Made by a program: the position numbers and the translations under genes
Assembly (NCBI GenBank): GCA_007125845.1
Contig: SLCK01000015.1
Span: 1-64,000, forward strand
Length of the DNA: 64,000 bases
Source of the DNA: Gemmatimonadota bacterium
GTDB taxonomy: Bacteria > Gemmatimonadota > Gemmatimonadetes > Longimicrobiales > Gaopeijiaceae
Direction: 5' to 3'
In this document: piece by piece, positions 10,848-47,764 of the stretch
Numbering within the stretch: the stretch's first letter is position 1
How the letters are laid out: each line of letters begins with the position of its first letter
The notes under the pieces: model-generated
What the model was told of the DNA's origin: nothing
The model's input: the letters and a program-made list of their open reading frames with translations, nothing else
Database searches by the model: none

Positions 10848-12107
10848 ATGCGCTTCATCCATCTCGCCGACCTGCATCTGGACACGGCGTTCCGGAGCCG
10901 ATCCCGTGAGATCCGCGAGGAGCTGCGCCACGCTTCCCGCCGTGCGCTGGAGAGTGCGGTGGATCGAGCGGTCAAGGAAGAGGTCGACGCCCTCCTGATC
11001 GCCGGCGACCTCTTCGACGGGGAGACGCTCACGCTCCAGACGGAGCGCTTTCTCGGGGACGCGCTCTCGCGGCTCGGCCAGGCGGGGATCCAGACGATAT
11101 ACGCCACAGGGAACCACGATCCCGGTTCTTCGTCGCTCCCCGGCGGCGAGATTTCCTGGCCCGAGGGCGTGTCGGTCTTGCGCGAGCCCCGCCCCGAACG
11201 GATCGAGATCCTCCGGGACGGTCGGCCCGTGGGAGCCGTGACCGGCGCGGGACACGCCACCCACCGCGAGCACCGCGACCTTTCCCGCTCCTTTCCGACG
11301 CCGACCCCGGGGCTTCCGGAAGTCGGCCTCCTGCACACGCAGGTCGGGGGCGCCCGCGGTGCGGACGCTCATCACCTCTATGCCCCCTCGGAGCTCTCCC
11401 ACCTCGAACGCTCGGGCTACGATTACTGGGCTCTCGGACACGTCCACGTTCGCCAGGCGCTGAGCGACGATCCCCCGATCCACTATCCGGGCAATACGCA
11501 AGGCCGAACTCCCCGGGAAACGGGCCCGAAGGGCGGCCTGCTCGTGGAGCTTCCTCCCGCAGGGAGTCCCCGGATTCGGTTCCTCGAGCTCGGCTCGATT
11601 CGCTGGGAACGCCTGATGCTGGACGGACTCGCCGAGGAGGAGCGTATCGAAGGCCTGTCCCGGAGAATCGAGGCGGCATGGCGGGAAGCCCGCGCCGACG
11701 ACCCCGGCACCGGTCGGACCCGCTGGATTCTCAGGGTCGAGCTCGCCGGAGCCTCGCTCCTGCATCGCGAGCTCGACCGCGAGGAGACGAGGGAGGAGCT
11801 GTGCAATGTCCTCGCGGCCTCACTCGGGCTGCTCGCCGTGGACCTGCGAACCGAGCGCCTGCGGCCCGCTCAGAACGTAGCCGACCACCTGAACCGCACC
11901 GATGTTCTGGGTGAGGCGCTTCGGCTGGCCCACCGGCTCGCGGGACCCGAGGGCCCTTCCCCTTCGGAGGCCCTGGAGCTCGACGAATCGGAGCTCGCCG
12001 GCTTCGACCTCGGCGGAGGCCGAAGCGTGGACGAGTATCTCCGTGGACTCCTCGAGGGCACCGATGCCGACCTCCTCGACCTCCTCCTGGACCGGGAGGC
12101 GCCGTGA
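10848..12107 (+). CDS. SbcD/YhaO-like metallophosphoesterase (DNA repair exonuclease)
   Basis: A 419-aa protein of the Mre11/SbcD class with every catalytic motif present: DLH (D8, H10), GDLFDG (D54), GNHD (N89, H90), LLHTQ (H163) and GHVH (H198, H200). These should bind two Mn ions for 3'-5' exonuclease and endonuclease activity on DNA. The C-terminal part would contact the partner ATPase. It ends in GTGA, overlapping the start of the YhaN-like gene, so the two are translationally coupled, like yhaO-yhaN of Bacillus. The start at 10848 aligns the first motif with the family. An ATG 14 codons upstream adds an unlikely extension. Confidence 0.9.
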   Translation: MRFIHLADLHLDTAFRSRSREIREELRHASRRALESAVDRAVKEEVDALLIAGDLFDGETLTLQTERFLGDALSRLGQAGIQTIYATGNHDPGSSSLPGGEISWPEGVSVLREPRPERIEILRDGRPVGAVTGAGHATHREHRDLSRSFPTPTPGLPEVGLLHTQVGGARGADAHHLYAPSELSHLERSGYDYWALGHVHVRQALSDDPPIHYPGNTQGRTPRETGPKGGLLVELPPAGSPRIRFLELGSIRWERLMLDGLAEEERIEGLSRRIEAAWREARADDPGTGRTRWILRVELAGASLLHRELDREETREELCNVLAASLGLLAVDLRTERLRPAQNVADHLNRTDVLGEALRLAHRLAGPEGPSPSEALELDESELAGFDLGGGRSVDEYLRGLLEGTDADLLDLLLDREAP

Positions 12108-14869
12108 GGTTCACTCGCATCCGAATTGAACGGTTCGGGCCCCTGATCGACCTCGATACCGGAGAGGGCGCCCCTCTTCCCCGCATCGTCGCCGTCCTGG
12201 GACCCAACGAGGCGGGAAAGTCGGCGTTCCACCAGGCGCTCACGGCGCTCCTCTTCGGGTTCTATCCCGCAAATCGAGATCAGAATCCCTTCACCCCGTG
12301 GGACGGGGGCTCTGCGGAGATCGCGGCGGAGATCGAGCTCGCGGAGGGAGGAAGCTGGGAGGTGAATCGCCGGCTCCTGGCGACGCCCCGCGGGGAGCTG
12401 ATTCGCAATGGCACCGTCGACAATCTTGACAACCGCAATCTCCCGGTGAGCCCGCACGTGGACCGTCACCTCTATCCGCAGCTCTACGGGATCACCCTGT
12501 CTGAGCTGGCGGAGCTGGATCAAGCCGGCTGGGAGTCGGTCCAGGACCACCTGGTCGTGGGGATGGGCAGCCAGGATCTGCGCGCACCGAGAGGGGTGGT
12601 CGAGCGATTGACGAGGGAGGCGAACCAGCTCTGGCGTGCGGATCGCCGCACGTCGCGCTACCGGGAGCTGCGCGACCAGGTCGCCCAGTGGAGGGAACTG
12701 CGCAAGGAGGCCGAGGACCGCGACCGCAGAGGTAGGGAGCTCCTTCGACGACGAGTGGAGCTCAGCGCCGGGCTGGAAGATCTCAGGCGAAAGCGCCGCG
12801 CGGCCGATCGACGGTTGGCGAGGCTTCGGGAGCTCCTTCCGCTTCGCGGAATGCTCGCCCGGATCGAGGAGCTCGAGGCGACGGTTGGTGAACCCTCCGA
12901 GCTCGAGGCTCTCCCCGGGGATCCGCGTGCGCGGCTGGAGGAGCTCGACGAGCGCCTGCGGGAGGTCGACGAACAGGGGGAGCGGCTCCGGGCTTCATTG
13001 GACGAAGCGCGGGAGACTGTCGAGGCCTTCTCCGCCGAGGACCGAGCCCTCGTCGAGATCGCTTCCGAGGTGGAAGCCCTGACCGACCGTGCTCCCCTCT
13101 TCCAGGAGAAGGCCGCGCGCGGCGGAGCGCTCGAGCACGAGCTACGGCAGCTCGAACGGCGCATTCGGGAATCGGCGGGCAGCGTCCTCGAAGATGTCCC
13201 GGAGACGGGCGCCGACCTGGAACGCCTCCAGGCTCGCTTCGCCGCGCTTCCTCTCACCGATCTCCGGGAAAAGGTCGAGGCGCTGGAGGACGCGAGGCGA
13301 CGGCAGGAGGGTCTCGAGGATCGACTGGACTCGATCCGACGGAACCCTCCACCCCCTCCCCCCCGACTTCCCCTCTGGGCCTTCGCCCTCGGAATCGCGG
13401 GGCTGGCAGCCCTGATCGGCGGGCTCGCCGGCATGGGCACCGCCGTGACGGTGATTGGGCTGGTTCTCCTGCTTGCGGGTGGCGGAGGTCTCGCAAGAGG
13501 GTGGGCACGGCTCACGGCCGCTCGAGAGGTCGGGGAGGCCCGGCGCCGGGATGCGGAAGAGTTGGAGCTGCGGCGCGCGGAGCTGTCTGCGAGAACGGAT
13601 CGGATCGGGACGGAAGTGACCGAACTCCTCGCTCCCCTCGGGGTGCGGGACAGCGCGCTGTCTCGCACCCCGAGCTCCATGGCGAGGGCACTGGAAGAGC
13701 TCGGCTCCTTTCTCCGGGAGCACGAGGATCGGGGGCGGACGTTCGCGGCGCTAACGGAGGAGGAGCGCCGGCTCACCGAGGAAACGGCCTCCCTGGGCGA
13801 TCGCCTGGGGCTCGACCTGCCCCAGGACCTCCACCTGGCCCTCCCCGTTCTCGCCCGCCGCCTCCGAGACGCCCGCGAGGTGGCCTCAGGCGCGGAAGCG
13901 AGCCGGAGGGAGATCGAACGGCTCGAAGGGGAGCTCGCGCGGGTCGGGAAGACCCGATCCCGACTCGACGGGGAGCGGGAACACCTGGTTCGGGCGATCC
14001 GACGGGCAGGAGGGGACACGGACGAACCCTCCCTGCAACGGGTGGAGGAACGCCTCCGCAGCCGGGAGCTGCGGGAGCGGCTCGTGGAGGAGCTGGAGCG
14101 GGAGTCCGGATCGCTCCGTGAGCTGAGACAACGAATCGAGGAGGCGGAGCTCGAAGGAGAGGACTGGAGCGATCCCCGGGCCCGGCTCCACGAAGGCGAG
14201 GACACCCTCGCCGAGCTGGACGACGAGCTGGAGGGGCTCCGCGACGAGCTGAGCAAACTGGAACGGGAGGAGGGCACGCTCCAGAATCAGGACACGGTCG
14301 ACGTCGTGGAAGGCCGGATACAGGTGATCGAGGAGGAAATCGAGGCGGTCCGCAGGAAGAGAGACCGGCTCCTCGTGCTGGCCCGGCTCCTCGATCGGGC
14401 AGAGCACCGATTCCGCACCGAGCACCAACCCGATCTGGTGCGCCGTGCGGAGGCCCATATGGAACGAATCACCGCGGGCCGTTACCGACGGCTCCTCCTT
14501 GGAAGCGACGGTGAGACGCGAGCCTTTCAACTGGACGCAGGCCACCTGCCCCACCCCTTCCCTCTCATCCCGCCCCTCTCCACCGGCACCCGGGAGCAGG
14601 TCTACTTCGCGCTGAGGCTGGCGATCGTGGACCACCTGGACGGATCCGGCGAGCCGCTCCCCCTCCTCCTGGACGAGATCCTGGTGAACTGGGACCCCGA
14701 GAGGAGGAGCAGGGCCCTGGACGTCCTCCGGGACATCTCCAAGAGACGTCAGGTCTTCCTCTTCACATGCCACCCCCACATCGCCCGGGAGGCGGCAGGC
14801 GCCGAAGGGCGGGTTCTCGACCTCGGCTCGGCCCCTCTTCCCCCGGCTGGAACGGAGGACCCCGCGTGA
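12104..14869 (+). CDS. YhaN-like coiled-coil ATPase (SbcC/Rad50 relative) with membrane segment
   Basis: The 921-aa partner of the preceding nuclease. Walker A GPNEAGKS is at residues 33-40. Long charged heptad coils fill about 160-400 and 480-800. The ABC signature region STGTREQVYFAL and Walker B LPLLLDEILVNWDPER are near residues 825-865. There is no CxxC zinc hook. Instead residues 420-460 contain two hydrophobic segments (starting LPLWAFALGIAGLAALIGG), as in YhaN, suggesting membrane association. The GTG start overlaps the upstream TGA, and the stop overlaps the next GTG. Together with the upstream protein it probably forms an Mre11-Rad50-like nuclease complex. The biological substrate is unknown. 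Confidence 0.87.
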   Translation: MRFTRIRIERFGPLIDLDTGEGAPLPRIVAVLGPNEAGKSAFHQALTALLFGFYPANRDQNPFTPWDGGSAEIAAEIELAEGGSWEVNRRLLATPRGELIRNGTVDNLDNRNLPVSPHVDRHLYPQLYGITLSELAELDQAGWESVQDHLVVGMGSQDLRAPRGVVERLTREANQLWRADRRTSRYRELRDQVAQWRELRKEAEDRDRRGRELLRRRVELSAGLEDLRRKRRAADRRLARLRELLPLRGMLARIEELEATVGEPSELEALPGDPRARLEELDERLREVDEQGERLRASLDEARETVEAFSAEDRALVEIASEVEALTDRAPLFQEKAARGGALEHELRQLERRIRESAGSVLEDVPETGADLERLQARFAALPLTDLREKVEALEDARRRQEGLEDRLDSIRRNPPPPPPRLPLWAFALGIAGLAALIGGLAGMGTAVTVIGLVLLLAGGGGLARGWARLTAAREVGEARRRDAEELELRRAELSARTDRIGTEVTELLAPLGVRDSALSRTPSSMARALEELGSFLREHEDRGRTFAALTEEERRLTEETASLGDRLGLDLPQDLHLALPVLARRLRDAREVASGAEASRREIERLEGELARVGKTRSRLDGEREHLVRAIRRAGGDTDEPSLQRVEERLRSRELRERLVEELERESGSLRELRQRIEEAELEGEDWSDPRARLHEGEDTLAELDDELEGLRDELSKLEREEGTLQNQDTVDVVEGRIQVIEEEIEAVRRKRDRLLVLARLLDRAEHRFRTEHQPDLVRRAEAHMERITAGRYRRLLLGSDGETRAFQLDAGHLPHPFPLIPPLSTGTREQVYFALRLAIVDHLDGSGEPLPLLLDEILVNWDPERRSRALDVLRDISKRRQVFLFTCHPHIAREAAGAEGRVLDLGSAPLPPAGTEDPA

Positions 14870-43413: not shown

Positions 43414-43454
43414 GGAGCCTGCCGATGGTGAACGATGACGCTGGTGGGCCGGCA

Positions 43455-45449
43455 ATGTCCGGAGCCCAAGGAGGAAAGTCAACGCCCGTGGTCGCGGTCG
43501 ACACCGGCGGCACCTTCACCGACCTCATACTCCTGTATGAGGGATCGGTCACGGCGCTCAAGGTTCCCTCGACGCCCGCCGACCCCGCGGTGGCCGTGCT
43601 CGAGGGACTGAACAAGCTCCTGGCGCCGCTACCGTCCCCCAGGTACGTCCTGGTCCACGGCTCCACCGTGGCCACCAACGCGATCCTGGAGCGGAAGGGA
43701 TCCCGGGTGGGACTCATCACCAATGCCGGGTTCGAGGACGTGATCGAGATCGGCCGCCAGAACCGTCCGCAGCTCTATGCTCTCACCGGAACACGACCGC
43801 CGCCACTGGTCTCGCGCGACGACCGGATCGGGATCGAGGGGCGCACCGATGCGGATGGAACGGAGCACCGTCCAACCGAGCCCGAGGAGCTGGCCTCACT
43901 GCCCCAGCGCCTGCGGGGCGTCGAAGCCGTCGCCGTGGTCCTCCTTCACAGCTACCTGGATCCGTCCGGCGAGGAGGAAGTCGCTCGGGCACTCGCCGAG
44001 CTCGACACCCCGATCTCCGTTTCCTCCCGAATCCTCCCAGAATTCCGGGAGTTCGAGCGAACGTCCACCACGGTCGCGAACGCCTACGTCGCTCCGAGGA
44101 TGGCCGGATACCTGGAGCGGATCCGGAAGGGCGCGAAGGCCGACCGCATTCGGATCATGGGATCGAATGGCGGATCCCTGCCCATCGAACGAGCAGCCGA
44201 CGAACCGGTGCACACCGTCCTCTCGGGGCCGGCGGGAGGGGTGGTGGCGGCGCTGGAGTGGGGCCGGCGGGGGTGCACCGACAGGGTCCTATCCTTCGAC
44301 ATGGGGGGCACCTCCACTGACGTCAGCCTGGTCCCCGGTACCCTCCTTCAGACCCGGGAAGGAGAAGTCGGCGGCGTTCCGATCGCGATTCCTCTCCTCG
44401 ATATCCACACCGTAGGCGCGGGAGGGGGATCGATCGCTCGGGTGGACCCGGGAGGGGCGCTGCGCGTGGGCCCGGAGAGCGCCGGCGCGGACCCGGGGCC
44501 GATCTCCTACGGCCGCGGGGGGAATGACGTCACCGTAACCGACGCCCACGTCTGGCTCGGCCGCCTGCCCCCCGACGGTTTTCTGGGTGGGGAGCTTGGG
44601 CTGAGCCGGGAACGGATCGGAGGTCCGATGCAGGCCCTCGCGACTGCGGCCGGAACGTCCCCCGACGCGGTGGCCGAAGGGGTGCTCGAAGTGGTGAACA
44701 CGACGATGGAGTCGGCTCTCCGCGTGATTTCGGTCGAGCGGGGTGTGGATCCCTCCGGCTACGACCTGGTGGCCTTCGGGGGAGCCGGAGGGCTACATGC
44801 GGCCGAGCTCGTAGAGCGTTTGGGCCTGAAGAGCGCCCTGATCCCGCCCGATCCGGGCCTGCTCTCGGCCCACGGCATGCTTCTCGCCCCCATCGTTCGG
44901 GAGCGCTCGCTCACCGTGCTCGCCTCCACCGACGACCACGAGGCCCTGCATCTCGTGACGGCCGGCCTCGGAGAGCTGGAAGAGGAGGCACGAGCCGAGA
45001 TGATGAGTGAAGGCTTCTCGCCTGACCGACTCGATGCCACCCGTTGGGTCGACGCCCGCTATGAAGGGCAGAGCTATGAGCTGAGGGTGCCCGCCCGGGA
45101 CTGGATCGAGGCGTTCCACGTCGCCCACCGGGAGCGCTACGGGTACGAAGCCCGCTCGAGCCCGGTCGAAGCGGTGACTCTCCGGGTTCGCCTCGAGACG
45201 CCCGGGGAGCCGGTGCCGCTCTCGCCGCAAGAAAGCTCCCCGTCCGATCCCACGACCCGTAGCACCCCCGTGGTCGTGGGCGGCAGGACAACGGACGCTC
45301 AGCTCATCACCCGCTCCGCAGTGACCGCCCGCGGAGGTATCGAAGGTCCGGCGGTCGTGCTCGAGTACAGCTCCACGATCTGGTGTCCGCCGGGATGGAG
45401 GCTGGACTCCGGAAACGGTGGCATTCTCCGGTTGCGGCAGGGGGCCTAG
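43455..45449 (+). CDS. Hydantoinase/5-oxoprolinase A subunit
   Basis: A 664-aa HyuA-type protein. An ASKHA-like ATP-binding domain opens with VAVDTGGTFTDL, followed by VLVHGSTVATNAILERKG, and the middle has SFDMGGTSTDVSLV and GAGGGSIARVDPGGAL. These are hallmarks of N-methylhydantoinase A, acetone carboxylase beta and 5-oxoprolinase N-terminal halves. ATP-dependent ring opening or carboxylation would need a B subunit, which is not adjacent. The start is ATG 43455; ATG 43425 is possible but leaves only 11 bp to the trpE start. The substrate is undecided. Confidence 0.88.
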   Translation: MSGAQGGKSTPVVAVDTGGTFTDLILLYEGSVTALKVPSTPADPAVAVLEGLNKLLAPLPSPRYVLVHGSTVATNAILERKGSRVGLITNAGFEDVIEIGRQNRPQLYALTGTRPPPLVSRDDRIGIEGRTDADGTEHRPTEPEELASLPQRLRGVEAVAVVLLHSYLDPSGEEEVARALAELDTPISVSSRILPEFREFERTSTTVANAYVAPRMAGYLERIRKGAKADRIRIMGSNGGSLPIERAADEPVHTVLSGPAGGVVAALEWGRRGCTDRVLSFDMGGTSTDVSLVPGTLLQTREGEVGGVPIAIPLLDIHTVGAGGGSIARVDPGGALRVGPESAGADPGPISYGRGGNDVTVTDAHVWLGRLPPDGFLGGELGLSRERIGGPMQALATAAGTSPDAVAEGVLEVVNTTMESALRVISVERGVDPSGYDLVAFGGAGGLHAAELVERLGLKSALIPPDPGLLSAHGMLLAPIVRERSLTVLASTDDHEALHLVTAGLGELEEEARAEMMSEGFSPDRLDATRWVDARYEGQSYELRVPARDWIEAFHVAHRERYGYEARSSPVEAVTLRVRLETPGEPVPLSPQESSPSDPTTRSTPVVVGGRTTDAQLITRSAVTARGGIEGPAVVLEYSSTIWCPPGWRLDSGNGGILRLRQGA

Positions 45450-45457
45450 GAGGTTGT

Positions 45458-47764
45458 TCAACCCCCGAGCCCTTCCAACCGAAAGCCGGCAAAGCCTCCC
45501 TGCCTCCAGACCACCCGCCGTCCGCCGAGGGCCTGCGGACGCCATTCCACGATCAGGCGAGGACATTCCACCATCCCTTCGGACACCGAAGGGGGAACCA
45601 GCAGGAGGACCCTCGCGCCAGTGGGCGCGGAGATCCGCGTAGAGAGGAGTTGGAGGGCGGGAAGCGCCAGCTCCTCGCTGCCCGAGCCCCGGAGCTGCCA
45701 GAGAAAGAGCCCGCCAAGCCCGTGGGCGCGCACCCGCGCCGTCTCCCAGAGCGCGAGATGAACGGCGAAGTGGAGTGCCGACGCCTCCGGCCCCTCCGGG
45801 TCCACCTCTCGTCCGCGGGCCTCGACCGCCGTCAGCCGCTCCCGGCGCGGTCGGATGGCGACCAGCCGTCCCCGCGTCAATCTCTGCAGGATGCCGCCGG
45901 CTCTCCTGAGAACCGGGCGGATCCCCGTCAAGCGCTCGAGGCTCTCTACCGGAGCGGCCGTCGAGCGGCTGGCGGCCCCGGCCGAGGGACTCCTGCCGAG
46001 AGAACCGGCACTCGATCCCTCCGCACGCGCGCGCTCTCGCTCGACCCGCTCACTGGTGTCGGCGACCCGGGACTGAAGCACAAGCACCCTCCTCTCGAGC
46101 TCTCGAAGCCTCTCCGGCTTGATGTCGAGCTGCTCCCGCCTGCGCTTCCACCATTTCCCGTCCTGGACCACTTCCTCCCACTCCTCCTCCAGCGTTCGCA
46201 ACAGTCCGGGAAAGGCCTCACCCAGCTCGCGTTCGCATGTGGGGCAGCGACCCGAGGAACCCTCCTCCCGGATCTCTCGAAGGCGCCCAGAAAGCTCCCG
46301 CGCTCGGTCCCGGTACGCGCTGAGCCGCGAGTCCGCTTCCTGCCGGTCTCGGGCCCACTCCATGGTCAGGGCTTCGAGGTCGCCGGAGGCCTCCACATGG
46401 TCTTCTCGCATGCGGCGGAGAGAGGCCTCCAGCCTCTCGAGCACTTCGTCGCTCTCCCTGGGTCCGGCTGACTCGGGGCTCGAGGGTGAGTCCTCGACCT
46501 CTCCCCCGATCCCGGGTCCTCCCAGAACCGCTCGCAGGAGCTCCTCCGGAGTCCCTTCGCCTCCCCAGATCGCCCTGGACACCGGGTCGGCGGGAACGTC
46601 AGGGGCCACGGTGAGACCATTGAGGAGATCGGAGTCGGTGCCGAACCCCTCAAGCCATGGACGCTGGAGCCTCCCTGCCAGTCGGACGCGGGACTCGTCG
46701 GTCGGGGAGGTGATGACGGTCACCCCATCCGGAAGCTCGAGCCCGCGGCGTCCGCGAACGCTCCGCGAGGGAAGGAAGAGTCGCTCAGGACGCCACTCAT
46801 CCACCGCGGCCGGGGGTAGCTCGTCGTCCGAGAGGTGCAGCTCCACGTATGCGGAGCGCCGCCGAATGGCGGACACGAGACCCTGGGGAACGCCTTCCTG
46901 GGGCGTCAGGAGATCCCCTCTCAGCCGGGCCCGTACCACCTTCCCTTCGATTCCACCGGGAATCCCTTCCACGAGCTCTCTCAGCCTTCGCCCGCCGGCT
47001 TCGGGATCGCCCACCTCGGTACGTACGGGAGCCAGGTCGACTACCGGACGCACGGGAATCGGATGGAATTCGCCCTGCCCGCTGTCGAGATCGAAGCTGA
47101 AGAACCCCTTGTCCTCGGCAGCGTCGGCCCAGGGGTCCCAGCCGGGCCGCTCGAGGGAGCCTGCTCGGTGCACGTGGGGAGCCCAGCTTCGCCGCGTGTG
47201 ATCTCCCCCTATGGCAACGTAGCTCCAGTCCTCCGCGTGGATTCCGACGCCGCCCGAGGGACTCGGTTCTCCCCGGATGAGGAGGAGATTCCAACGCGCC
47301 TCAGAGTGGGGAACGAGACGAGGGGGCTCGGCTCCTCGGAGGGCGCGGTGGGGCACGAGGAGAGCATGAACACCCACCCGCTCCAAGTGAATCGCGCGTG
47401 GCTTGGACGTGGCCGCTTCCACTCCGGGAAGCGCCCCGAGCACCGCAAGTGGCCCGGGTTCCGCCGGATTCGCGGGAGAATCCCGCTCCCCCGCGGTCAG
47501 GAGCACGGAGACCGAGGGAAGGCGATCTCTCAATCTGCGCAACCCTCGACTCGCCACATGGAAGGCGGTGCTCGGCGGATCGGGTCGATCGAAAAGATCG
47601 CCAGTAACGAGCACGAGATCCGGCCGCAGATGAACGATCTCGTGCAGGCAGCGGAGGAAGGCCTCTTCGAGATCCCTCTCGCACCGATGCCTGCCCCGCT
47701 CCATGCCCGGGAGGCCCCGAAAGCCCAGATGCACGTCGGAAAGGTGGACCAGTCGCACGGTCAC
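45458..47764 (-). CDS. SbcD-SbcC-like fusion with decayed active sites and intact CxxC hook
   Basis: A 768-aa protein that reads as an Mre11/SbcD-like phosphoesterase (residues 1-330) joined to a shortened Rad50/SbcC-like ATPase (331-768). In the nuclease half SDVH (9-12) and GDLFDR (55-60) are kept. GNHD has become GERD (92-95), the next His position is Arg (LLLIRGE, 161-167), and GHxH is GGDH (186-189). In the ATPase half the expected P-loop after LPDGVTVIT reads SPTDESRV (353-360), without GK(S/T). The signature region is PEGPEASAL (656-664), and Walker B is LFLWQ (686-690) without Asp/Glu. The coiled coil (about 435-580) still has a CPTC zinc-hook motif (507-510). The GTG start has AGGGG upstream. 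The gene lies 65 bp behind the flavin reductase gene. It is probably a structural pseudoenzyme. Confidence 0.75.
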   Translation of the reverse strand: MTVRLVHLSDVHLGFRGLPGMERGRHRCERDLEEAFLRCLHEIVHLRPDLVLVTGDLFDRPDPPSTAFHVASRGLRRLRDRLPSVSVLLTAGERDSPANPAEPGPLAVLGALPGVEAATSKPRAIHLERVGVHALLVPHRALRGAEPPRLVPHSEARWNLLLIRGEPSPSGGVGIHAEDWSYVAIGGDHTRRSWAPHVHRAGSLERPGWDPWADAAEDKGFFSFDLDSGQGEFHPIPVRPVVDLAPVRTEVGDPEAGGRRLRELVEGIPGGIEGKVVRARLRGDLLTPQEGVPQGLVSAIRRRSAYVELHLSDDELPPAAVDEWRPERLFLPSRSVRGRRGLELPDGVTVITSPTDESRVRLAGRLQRPWLEGFGTDSDLLNGLTVAPDVPADPVSRAIWGGEGTPEELLRAVLGGPGIGGEVEDSPSSPESAGPRESDEVLERLEASLRRMREDHVEASGDLEALTMEWARDRQEADSRLSAYRDRARELSGRLREIREEGSSGRCPTCERELGEAFPGLLRTLEEEWEEVVQDGKWWKRRREQLDIKPERLRELERRVLVLQSRVADTSERVERERARAEGSSAGSLGRSPSAGAASRSTAAPVESLERLTGIRPVLRRAGGILQRLTRGRLVAIRPRRERLTAVEARGREVDPEGPEASALHFAVHLALWETARVRAHGLGGLFLWQLRGSGSEELALPALQLLSTRISAPTGARVLLLVPPSVSEGMVECPRLIVEWRPQALGGRRVVWRQGGFAGFRLEGLGG

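Follow-up and report, generated by a model that had tools for sequence, protein, structure and literature searches.

Sequence comparison indicates that the ancestor of a single Gemmatimonadota family (f1) lost catalysis in its compact Mre11/Rad50 pair: the ATPase motifs, the nuclease histidine and at least two metal ligands are gone. Both halves have nevertheless been kept, in shortened form, fused in many lineages and held by purifying selection. The member described here is a single fused gene within the 64,000-nucleotide stretch of DNA that was analyzed (the window). Our tentative reading, held at a little under even confidence, is that this bacterial family maintains an Mre11-Rad50 without ATPase and nuclease solely to serve as a tether or scaffold paired by its zinc hook. 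The gene, its parts and its direct neighbors are as follows.

45458..47764, minus strand: fused, catalytically dead Mre11/Rad50-like coding sequence, 768 aa from GTG 47764 or 766 aa from GTG 47758
47075..47758, minus strand: Mre11/SbcD-like phosphoesterase core, residues 3-230, with D10, H12, D56, D95 and H189 kept
46829..47074, minus strand: region that takes the position of the Mre11 capping domain (domain assigned by analogy), residues 231-312
46667..46783, minus strand: what is left of the Rad50 N-terminal lobe, residues 328-366
46253..46462, minus strand: ascending helix of the coiled coil, residues 435-504, pLDDT mostly about 88-94
46235..46246, minus strand: zinc hook CPTC, residues 507-510, both cysteines invariant in 66 of 66 dead homologues
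46016..46222, minus strand: descending coiled-coil helices, residues 515-583, from structure prediction
46127..46165, minus strand: hook-proximal motif QDGKWWKRRREQL, residues 534-546, common to active Rad50s of sister families
45530..45922, minus strand: what is left of the Rad50 C-terminal lobe, residues 615-745, lacking signature, Walker B and H-loop
47829..48389, minus strand: flavin reductase-like gene, upstream neighbor, 64 nt before GTG 47764
43425..45449, plus strand: hydantoinase A-like gene, downstream convergent neighbor

The gene is one unbroken open frame of 768 aa, as proposed in an earlier sequence-only reading, with the Mre11/SbcD-like half N-terminal and a short Rad50/SbcC-like half C-terminal. 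Translation possibly starts at GTG 47758, the third codon, because the relatives begin with 'MRLVHLSD' and this N terminus aligns there; the product would then be 766 aa. Every motif change quoted in that reading is present, namely GERD (residues 92-95), LLIRG (161-165), GGDH (186-189), LFLWQ (685-689), a degraded signature and the absence of G-x4-GK(S/T), together with the retained CPTC at 507-510. Within the Mre11-like core (3-230), the substitutions are N to E93, H to R94, H to R164 and H to G187. Residues 231-312 contain a conserved PGGI(E/D)GK(I/V)VR, and a clear helix-loop-helix was not seen in them. The N-terminal lobe remnant consists of a strand, VTVITS, followed by PTDESRVRL in the P-loop position. 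A frameshift or assembly error was rejected, as independent assemblies carry the same reduced open frames.

Domain searches match Pfam Metallophos to residues 4-68 (E 5e-6) and give a subthreshold match to the Pfam Rad50 zinc hook (E 0.016). The NCBIfam sbcd model (TIGR00619) matches with an E value of 1.4e-10, but at 41 bits against a cutoff of 77.65. Mean pLDDT of the AlphaFold model was 65.6 with 5 sequences and 76.2 with 9. An Mre11-like domain, a high-confidence coiled-coil hairpin (residues 435-583) and degenerate lobes are predicted; the pTM values are low (0.38 and 0.44), so the predicted domain arrangement is not reliable. When this model was searched with Foldseek, Mre11 crystal structures headed the list (E 1e-10). 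A profile of the dead family compared with solved structures resembles Mre11 at its N terminus and the Rad50 ATPase lobes at its C terminus, the latter with E values of 6e-7 to 2e-5. Pfam, Foldseek and the tree described below place the N-terminal half in the Mre11-type calcineurin-like phosphoesterase fold, with sbcd below its cutoff. The invariant CxxC lies at the apex of the predicted antiparallel coiled coil, and the order of the halves in one frame is that of an Mre11/Rad50 fusion. The catalytic GNHD, GHxH and two-metal site of Mre11/SbcD are not intact across the 66 homologues. Among the dead homologues examined, Walker A and Walker B of Rad50/SbcC are absent and the signature is degenerate.

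To delimit these losses, the 73 columns of the Mre11-like half with a conservation of 90% or more among 28 active proteins were compared with the 66 dead homologues, in which 35 columns remain at or above 90% and 15 drop below 10%. D10 (98%), H12 (97%), D56 (95%) and H189 (94%) are kept. We take these to be D8, H10, D49 and H208 in Pyrococcus furiosus Mre11 numbering and the ligands of one of the two Mre11 metals; by analogy, they would form a single-metal site. In GNHD, the Asn and the His (presumably N84 and the catalytic H85) are both at 0%, with Arg replacing the His in 95%, while the Asp stands at 97%. The first His of GHxH, presumably H206, persists in 3%. The earlier statement that most catalytic motifs were lost holds for the Walker motifs and for the Asn and His of GNHD, and needs refining for the first metal cluster. 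Similarly, the change of LLHTQ to LLIRG is real in the window's clade, which has Arg there, whereas 55% of the dead homologues retain this His (presumably H173). The other columns that were lost group just behind GDxF and also near residues 65-74 and 102-108, in regions that we take to lie near the dimer helices of known Mre11. Residues conserved in the dead clade only are G74, R94, P103, G104, A107 and G283, of which G74, P103, G104 and A107 sit in this diverged putative dimer-helix region.

In the Rad50-like half, neither the Walker A Lys nor the Walker B Asp is found in any of the 66 dead homologues. Conservation is concentrated at the hook, where 8 of the 18 columns that are near-invariant in active Rad50 stay at or above 90%, compared to 1 of 124 outside it, the latter a rough figure given the uncertain lobe alignment. 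Hooks of the form CGxC or CSxC, instead of CPTC, were observed in the clade of G023, G025 and G026 (loci L056, L070, L071 and L122-L126), and these three genomes also carry ordinary SbcCD; because this is a single clade, the combination counts as one event.

Dead homologues, fused or as adjacent genes, are present in 98 of the 121 genomes of the window's own family (109 genomes gave a match, and 11 weak ones with E > 1e-7 were removed), far more often than chance would give. The fused form occurs in most genera of the family and adjacent or overlapping genes in others, with open frames in more than 30 genera. In a sample of 395 genomes from across the phylum, full-length high-scoring matches were confined to this family. 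Other phyla were covered only by a scan for close relatives, which gave eight hits, all in Gemmatimonadota, and by phage and plasmid collections. A mobile or phage origin of the fusion was rejected: there was no phage match, plasmids gave only SbcD-type N-terminal matches, and the locus is partly syntenic with that of active relatives. The loci read from other families carry active motifs, with one partial exception. This sister-family pair (L078 3502-7084, genome G054, family f3) combines an SbcD with damaged nuclease motifs (GDRD and GHHP) and an SbcC that retains GPNGAGKS and LLVLDE, apparently, from its sequence, a case in which the nuclease was lost independently and the ATPase retained.

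A tree of 102 Mre11-like domains groups all 66 dead ones in a single clade (100/94), whose sister group comprises 29 compact domains (98/86), nearly all with active motifs. The active sister pairs occur across the class. A compact Mre11/Rad50 pair of about 390 and 815 aa is found in most other families sampled within the class, with the motifs GNHD, GHYH, GPNGAGKS, LLILDE and CPTC; the best NCBIfam model for its Rad50 half is the archaeal-type Rad50 PRK03918. The dead family has in common with this pair the Mre11 core, the coiled coil, the hook, the hook-proximal QDGxWW motif and, in part, the locus. Gene order around the locus is partly common to dead and active families and includes clusters with an RsgA-like GTPase, anthranilate synthase, a large membrane protein and a conserved short protein. 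The dead gene therefore most simply occupies the same locus and is not a transferred copy. The deepest dead clade holds both split and fused forms, so at least some fusions probably came after inactivation.

The sequence-only reading had used another pair in the window as the intact counterpart of the fusion:

10848..14869, plus strand: YhaO/YhaN-like pair P0002/P0003, a separate lineage, given for comparison

This pair belongs to the YhaO/YhaN lineage, and the proper comparison is the compact pair of the sister families. It does resemble the dead fusion in being a pair of Mre11-type nuclease and Rad50-like ATPase homologues in the same genome. However, its catalytic motifs are intact, and P0003 has a long hydrophobic stretch near residues 420-465 in the position of the hook. 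P0003 also matches Pfam AAA_27 (E 1.8e-16), which is absent from the fused protein, and P0002 forms a very long separate branch in the Mre11-like tree. Tree and domains rule out descent of the fusion from this pair.

Selection on the fused genes was assessed by pairwise Nei-Gojobori dN/dS between closely related genes with usable dS. Whole-gene values were 0.04-0.19. By part, the Mre11-like domain ranged from 0.01 to 0.12 and was lowest in most pairs, the coil plus hook ranged from 0.02 to 0.37, and the linker was usually highest; constraint therefore reaches beyond the hook. The nearest relative of the window's gene is 56% identical, too distant for dS, and these values describe the family and not this gene alone. 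That the gene is slowly decaying, or is a selfish relic, could be argued from the motif losses themselves, from relatives that carry no copy, small genomes among them, and from the stop codon between or near the two halves in a few assemblies. These dN/dS values, far below 1, refute decay for the family and uphold the earlier view that this is no ordinary decaying gene. The other two outcomes that the sequence-only reading had named as refuting it were likewise not observed: Walker and GNHD motifs are not intact in the relatives, and independent assemblies agree. Together with the open frames, the invariant hook cysteines and the newly conserved residues, they leave such a relic barely credible. 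The protein is not essential to the lineage, as some members of the family (e.g., G008, G015, G017 and G033) have neither the dead protein nor ordinary SbcCD.

Fusion of Mre11 and Rad50 is itself already known. Such fusions, including Mimivirus R555 and those of a Clostridium kluyveri plasmid and a Deferribacter megaplasmid, among others, were described in 2011 (PMC3175470) and are sporadic. As in the dead fusion, the Mre11-like half precedes the Rad50-like half. R555, with 1,351 aa, retains the Walker motifs and most nuclease residues, and one P-loop segment was not detected in the fusions of Anaerostipes and Bacillus phage 0305phi8-36; Gemmatimonadota and zinc are unmentioned (PMC3175470). 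Relative to active Mre11-Rad50, the dead family lacks Walker A, signature, Walker B, H-loop, the nuclease His and part of the metal site, has a much shorter coiled coil and is usually one polypeptide. A parallel in architecture is offered by the SMC hinge and Rad50 zinc hook modules, in which the tip of a coiled-coil hairpin likewise pairs two chains and of which the Rad50 hook is able to act as a constitutive dimerization module (PMC6969161). In the dead family, by contrast, the ATPase heads normally attached to such modules are dead. No description of a lineage-wide, doubly dead Mre11-Rad50 was found in the open-licence literature, preprints not covered, and the same search gave nothing on SbcC/SbcD or Mre11 in Gemmatimonadota or on an Mre11-Rad50 pseudoenzyme.

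It has long been asked, mainly through engineered mutants, how far the work of Mre11-Rad50 is structural (tethering, signaling) and how far it depends on ATP and cutting. For the dead family, we somewhat favor, without great confidence, a dimeric scaffold or tether independent of ATP and nuclease activity. Its two chains would be joined by their CxxC zinc hooks, each at the apex of a short coiled coil with arms of about 70 residues. A second pairing would probably run through the Mre11-like domain, where the likely dimer helices appear, by analogy, to be rebuilt with new conserved residues. D10, H12, D56 and H189 may bind a single structural metal ion where active Mre11 has its catalytic pair; both assignments are made by comparison with P. 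furiosus Mre11. The paired protein would bridge DNA, or a DNA-bound repair or chromosome complex, and leave cutting to other enzymes, DNA or such a complex being the likely cargo because of the protein's descent.

The kept first metal cluster (94-98%) and the Asp of GNHD (97%) also invite a different reading, in which the Mre11-like half binds one metal ion and acts as a weak or altered phosphoesterase. Calcineurin-like phosphoesterases normally require two metals, however, and here 95% of the homologues have Arg for the catalytic His, none has the metal-binding Asn and 97% lack the first GHxH His. Some members (L050, L055, L094 and L095) have lost more, and we consider such an enzyme quite improbable. 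The same His-to-Arg change at residue 94, as expected of a residue with a new job, would fit a regulatory subunit that pairs with the YhaO/YhaN-like pair, an AddAB-like nuclease or SMC and controls or positions its partner. YhaO-like genes (weak sbcd matches, frames of about 420-500 aa) are found in most family genomes and lie on the contig of the dead gene, 27-42 kb away, in the window, G010, G016, G019, G025 and G030; the window's genome also has AddAB-like genes. But this distance may reflect only general conservation of gene order, YhaO-like matches occur without the dead protein in G008, G017 and G033, and the dimer region of the Mre11-like domain is strongly diverged compared with that of active Mre11. 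A regulatory subunit is on balance unlikely, yet it deserves consideration.

A role at the membrane would follow if the protein acted with the product of the gene that, in some relatives, stands between the flavin reductase-like gene and the dead gene. This upstream gene abuts or overlaps the dead-gene start in about a dozen family loci examined (e.g., L040 3529-4989, L041 3520-5001, L060 7437-8792 and L065 8068-9444). It encodes a membrane half and a diverged or missing spermidine-synthase-like domain, and Pfam gives only weak SpeE or methyltransferase matches. All its invariant columns fall in the N-terminal membrane half, to which two examples are shortened (L059 5824-6462 and L066 9301-10041). 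Because many relatives have this gene, a role away from DNA would also be conceivable, which counts against a DNA tether. Nonetheless, in the window and its close relatives G030 and G032, the flavin reductase is directly upstream and the membrane gene is absent there. It is also found near active pairs in sister families, so the neighborhood predates the catalytic loss. A membrane-associated scaffold seems improbable to us.

That the dead protein is kept under strong selection with its hook intact suggests that the holding or scaffolding role of Mre11-Rad50 is of value alone; if this is true, the structural role of the complex is selectable without the rest. Here, a natural lineage with a clear active sister group has given up catalysis and retained the hook and Mre11-like fold, in about a hundred genomes. 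The dead family is in this sense a ready-made separation-of-function protein, and its ancestral and derived forms at one locus offer a means to test which surfaces carry the structural role.

Ordinary SbcCD is missing in most carriers of the dead protein examined. Among 34 family genomes besides that of the window, an SbcD above the TIGR00619 cutoff with strong two-ended SbcC matches was found in G009, G012, G023, G025 and G026, and in G009 and G012 the dead protein is absent. SbcCD is likely absent from the window's genome (assembly 94.8% complete), which has the YhaO/YhaN-like pair and a probable SMC (1,318-aa frame). Replacement by Ku-based end joining was rejected, as only about half of the relatives have Ku and its occurrence does not track the dead protein. 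In the window's genome, two adjacent Ku genes lie at G000:C15:842-2144, and two adjacent PDDEXK_1 genes at G000:C77:283-4321 suggest AddAB. Two similar copies of the dead gene were seen in G010 (C183:5674-7893, L051, and C209:11567-12541, L052); the second ends at a contig end and perhaps reflects a strain mixture.
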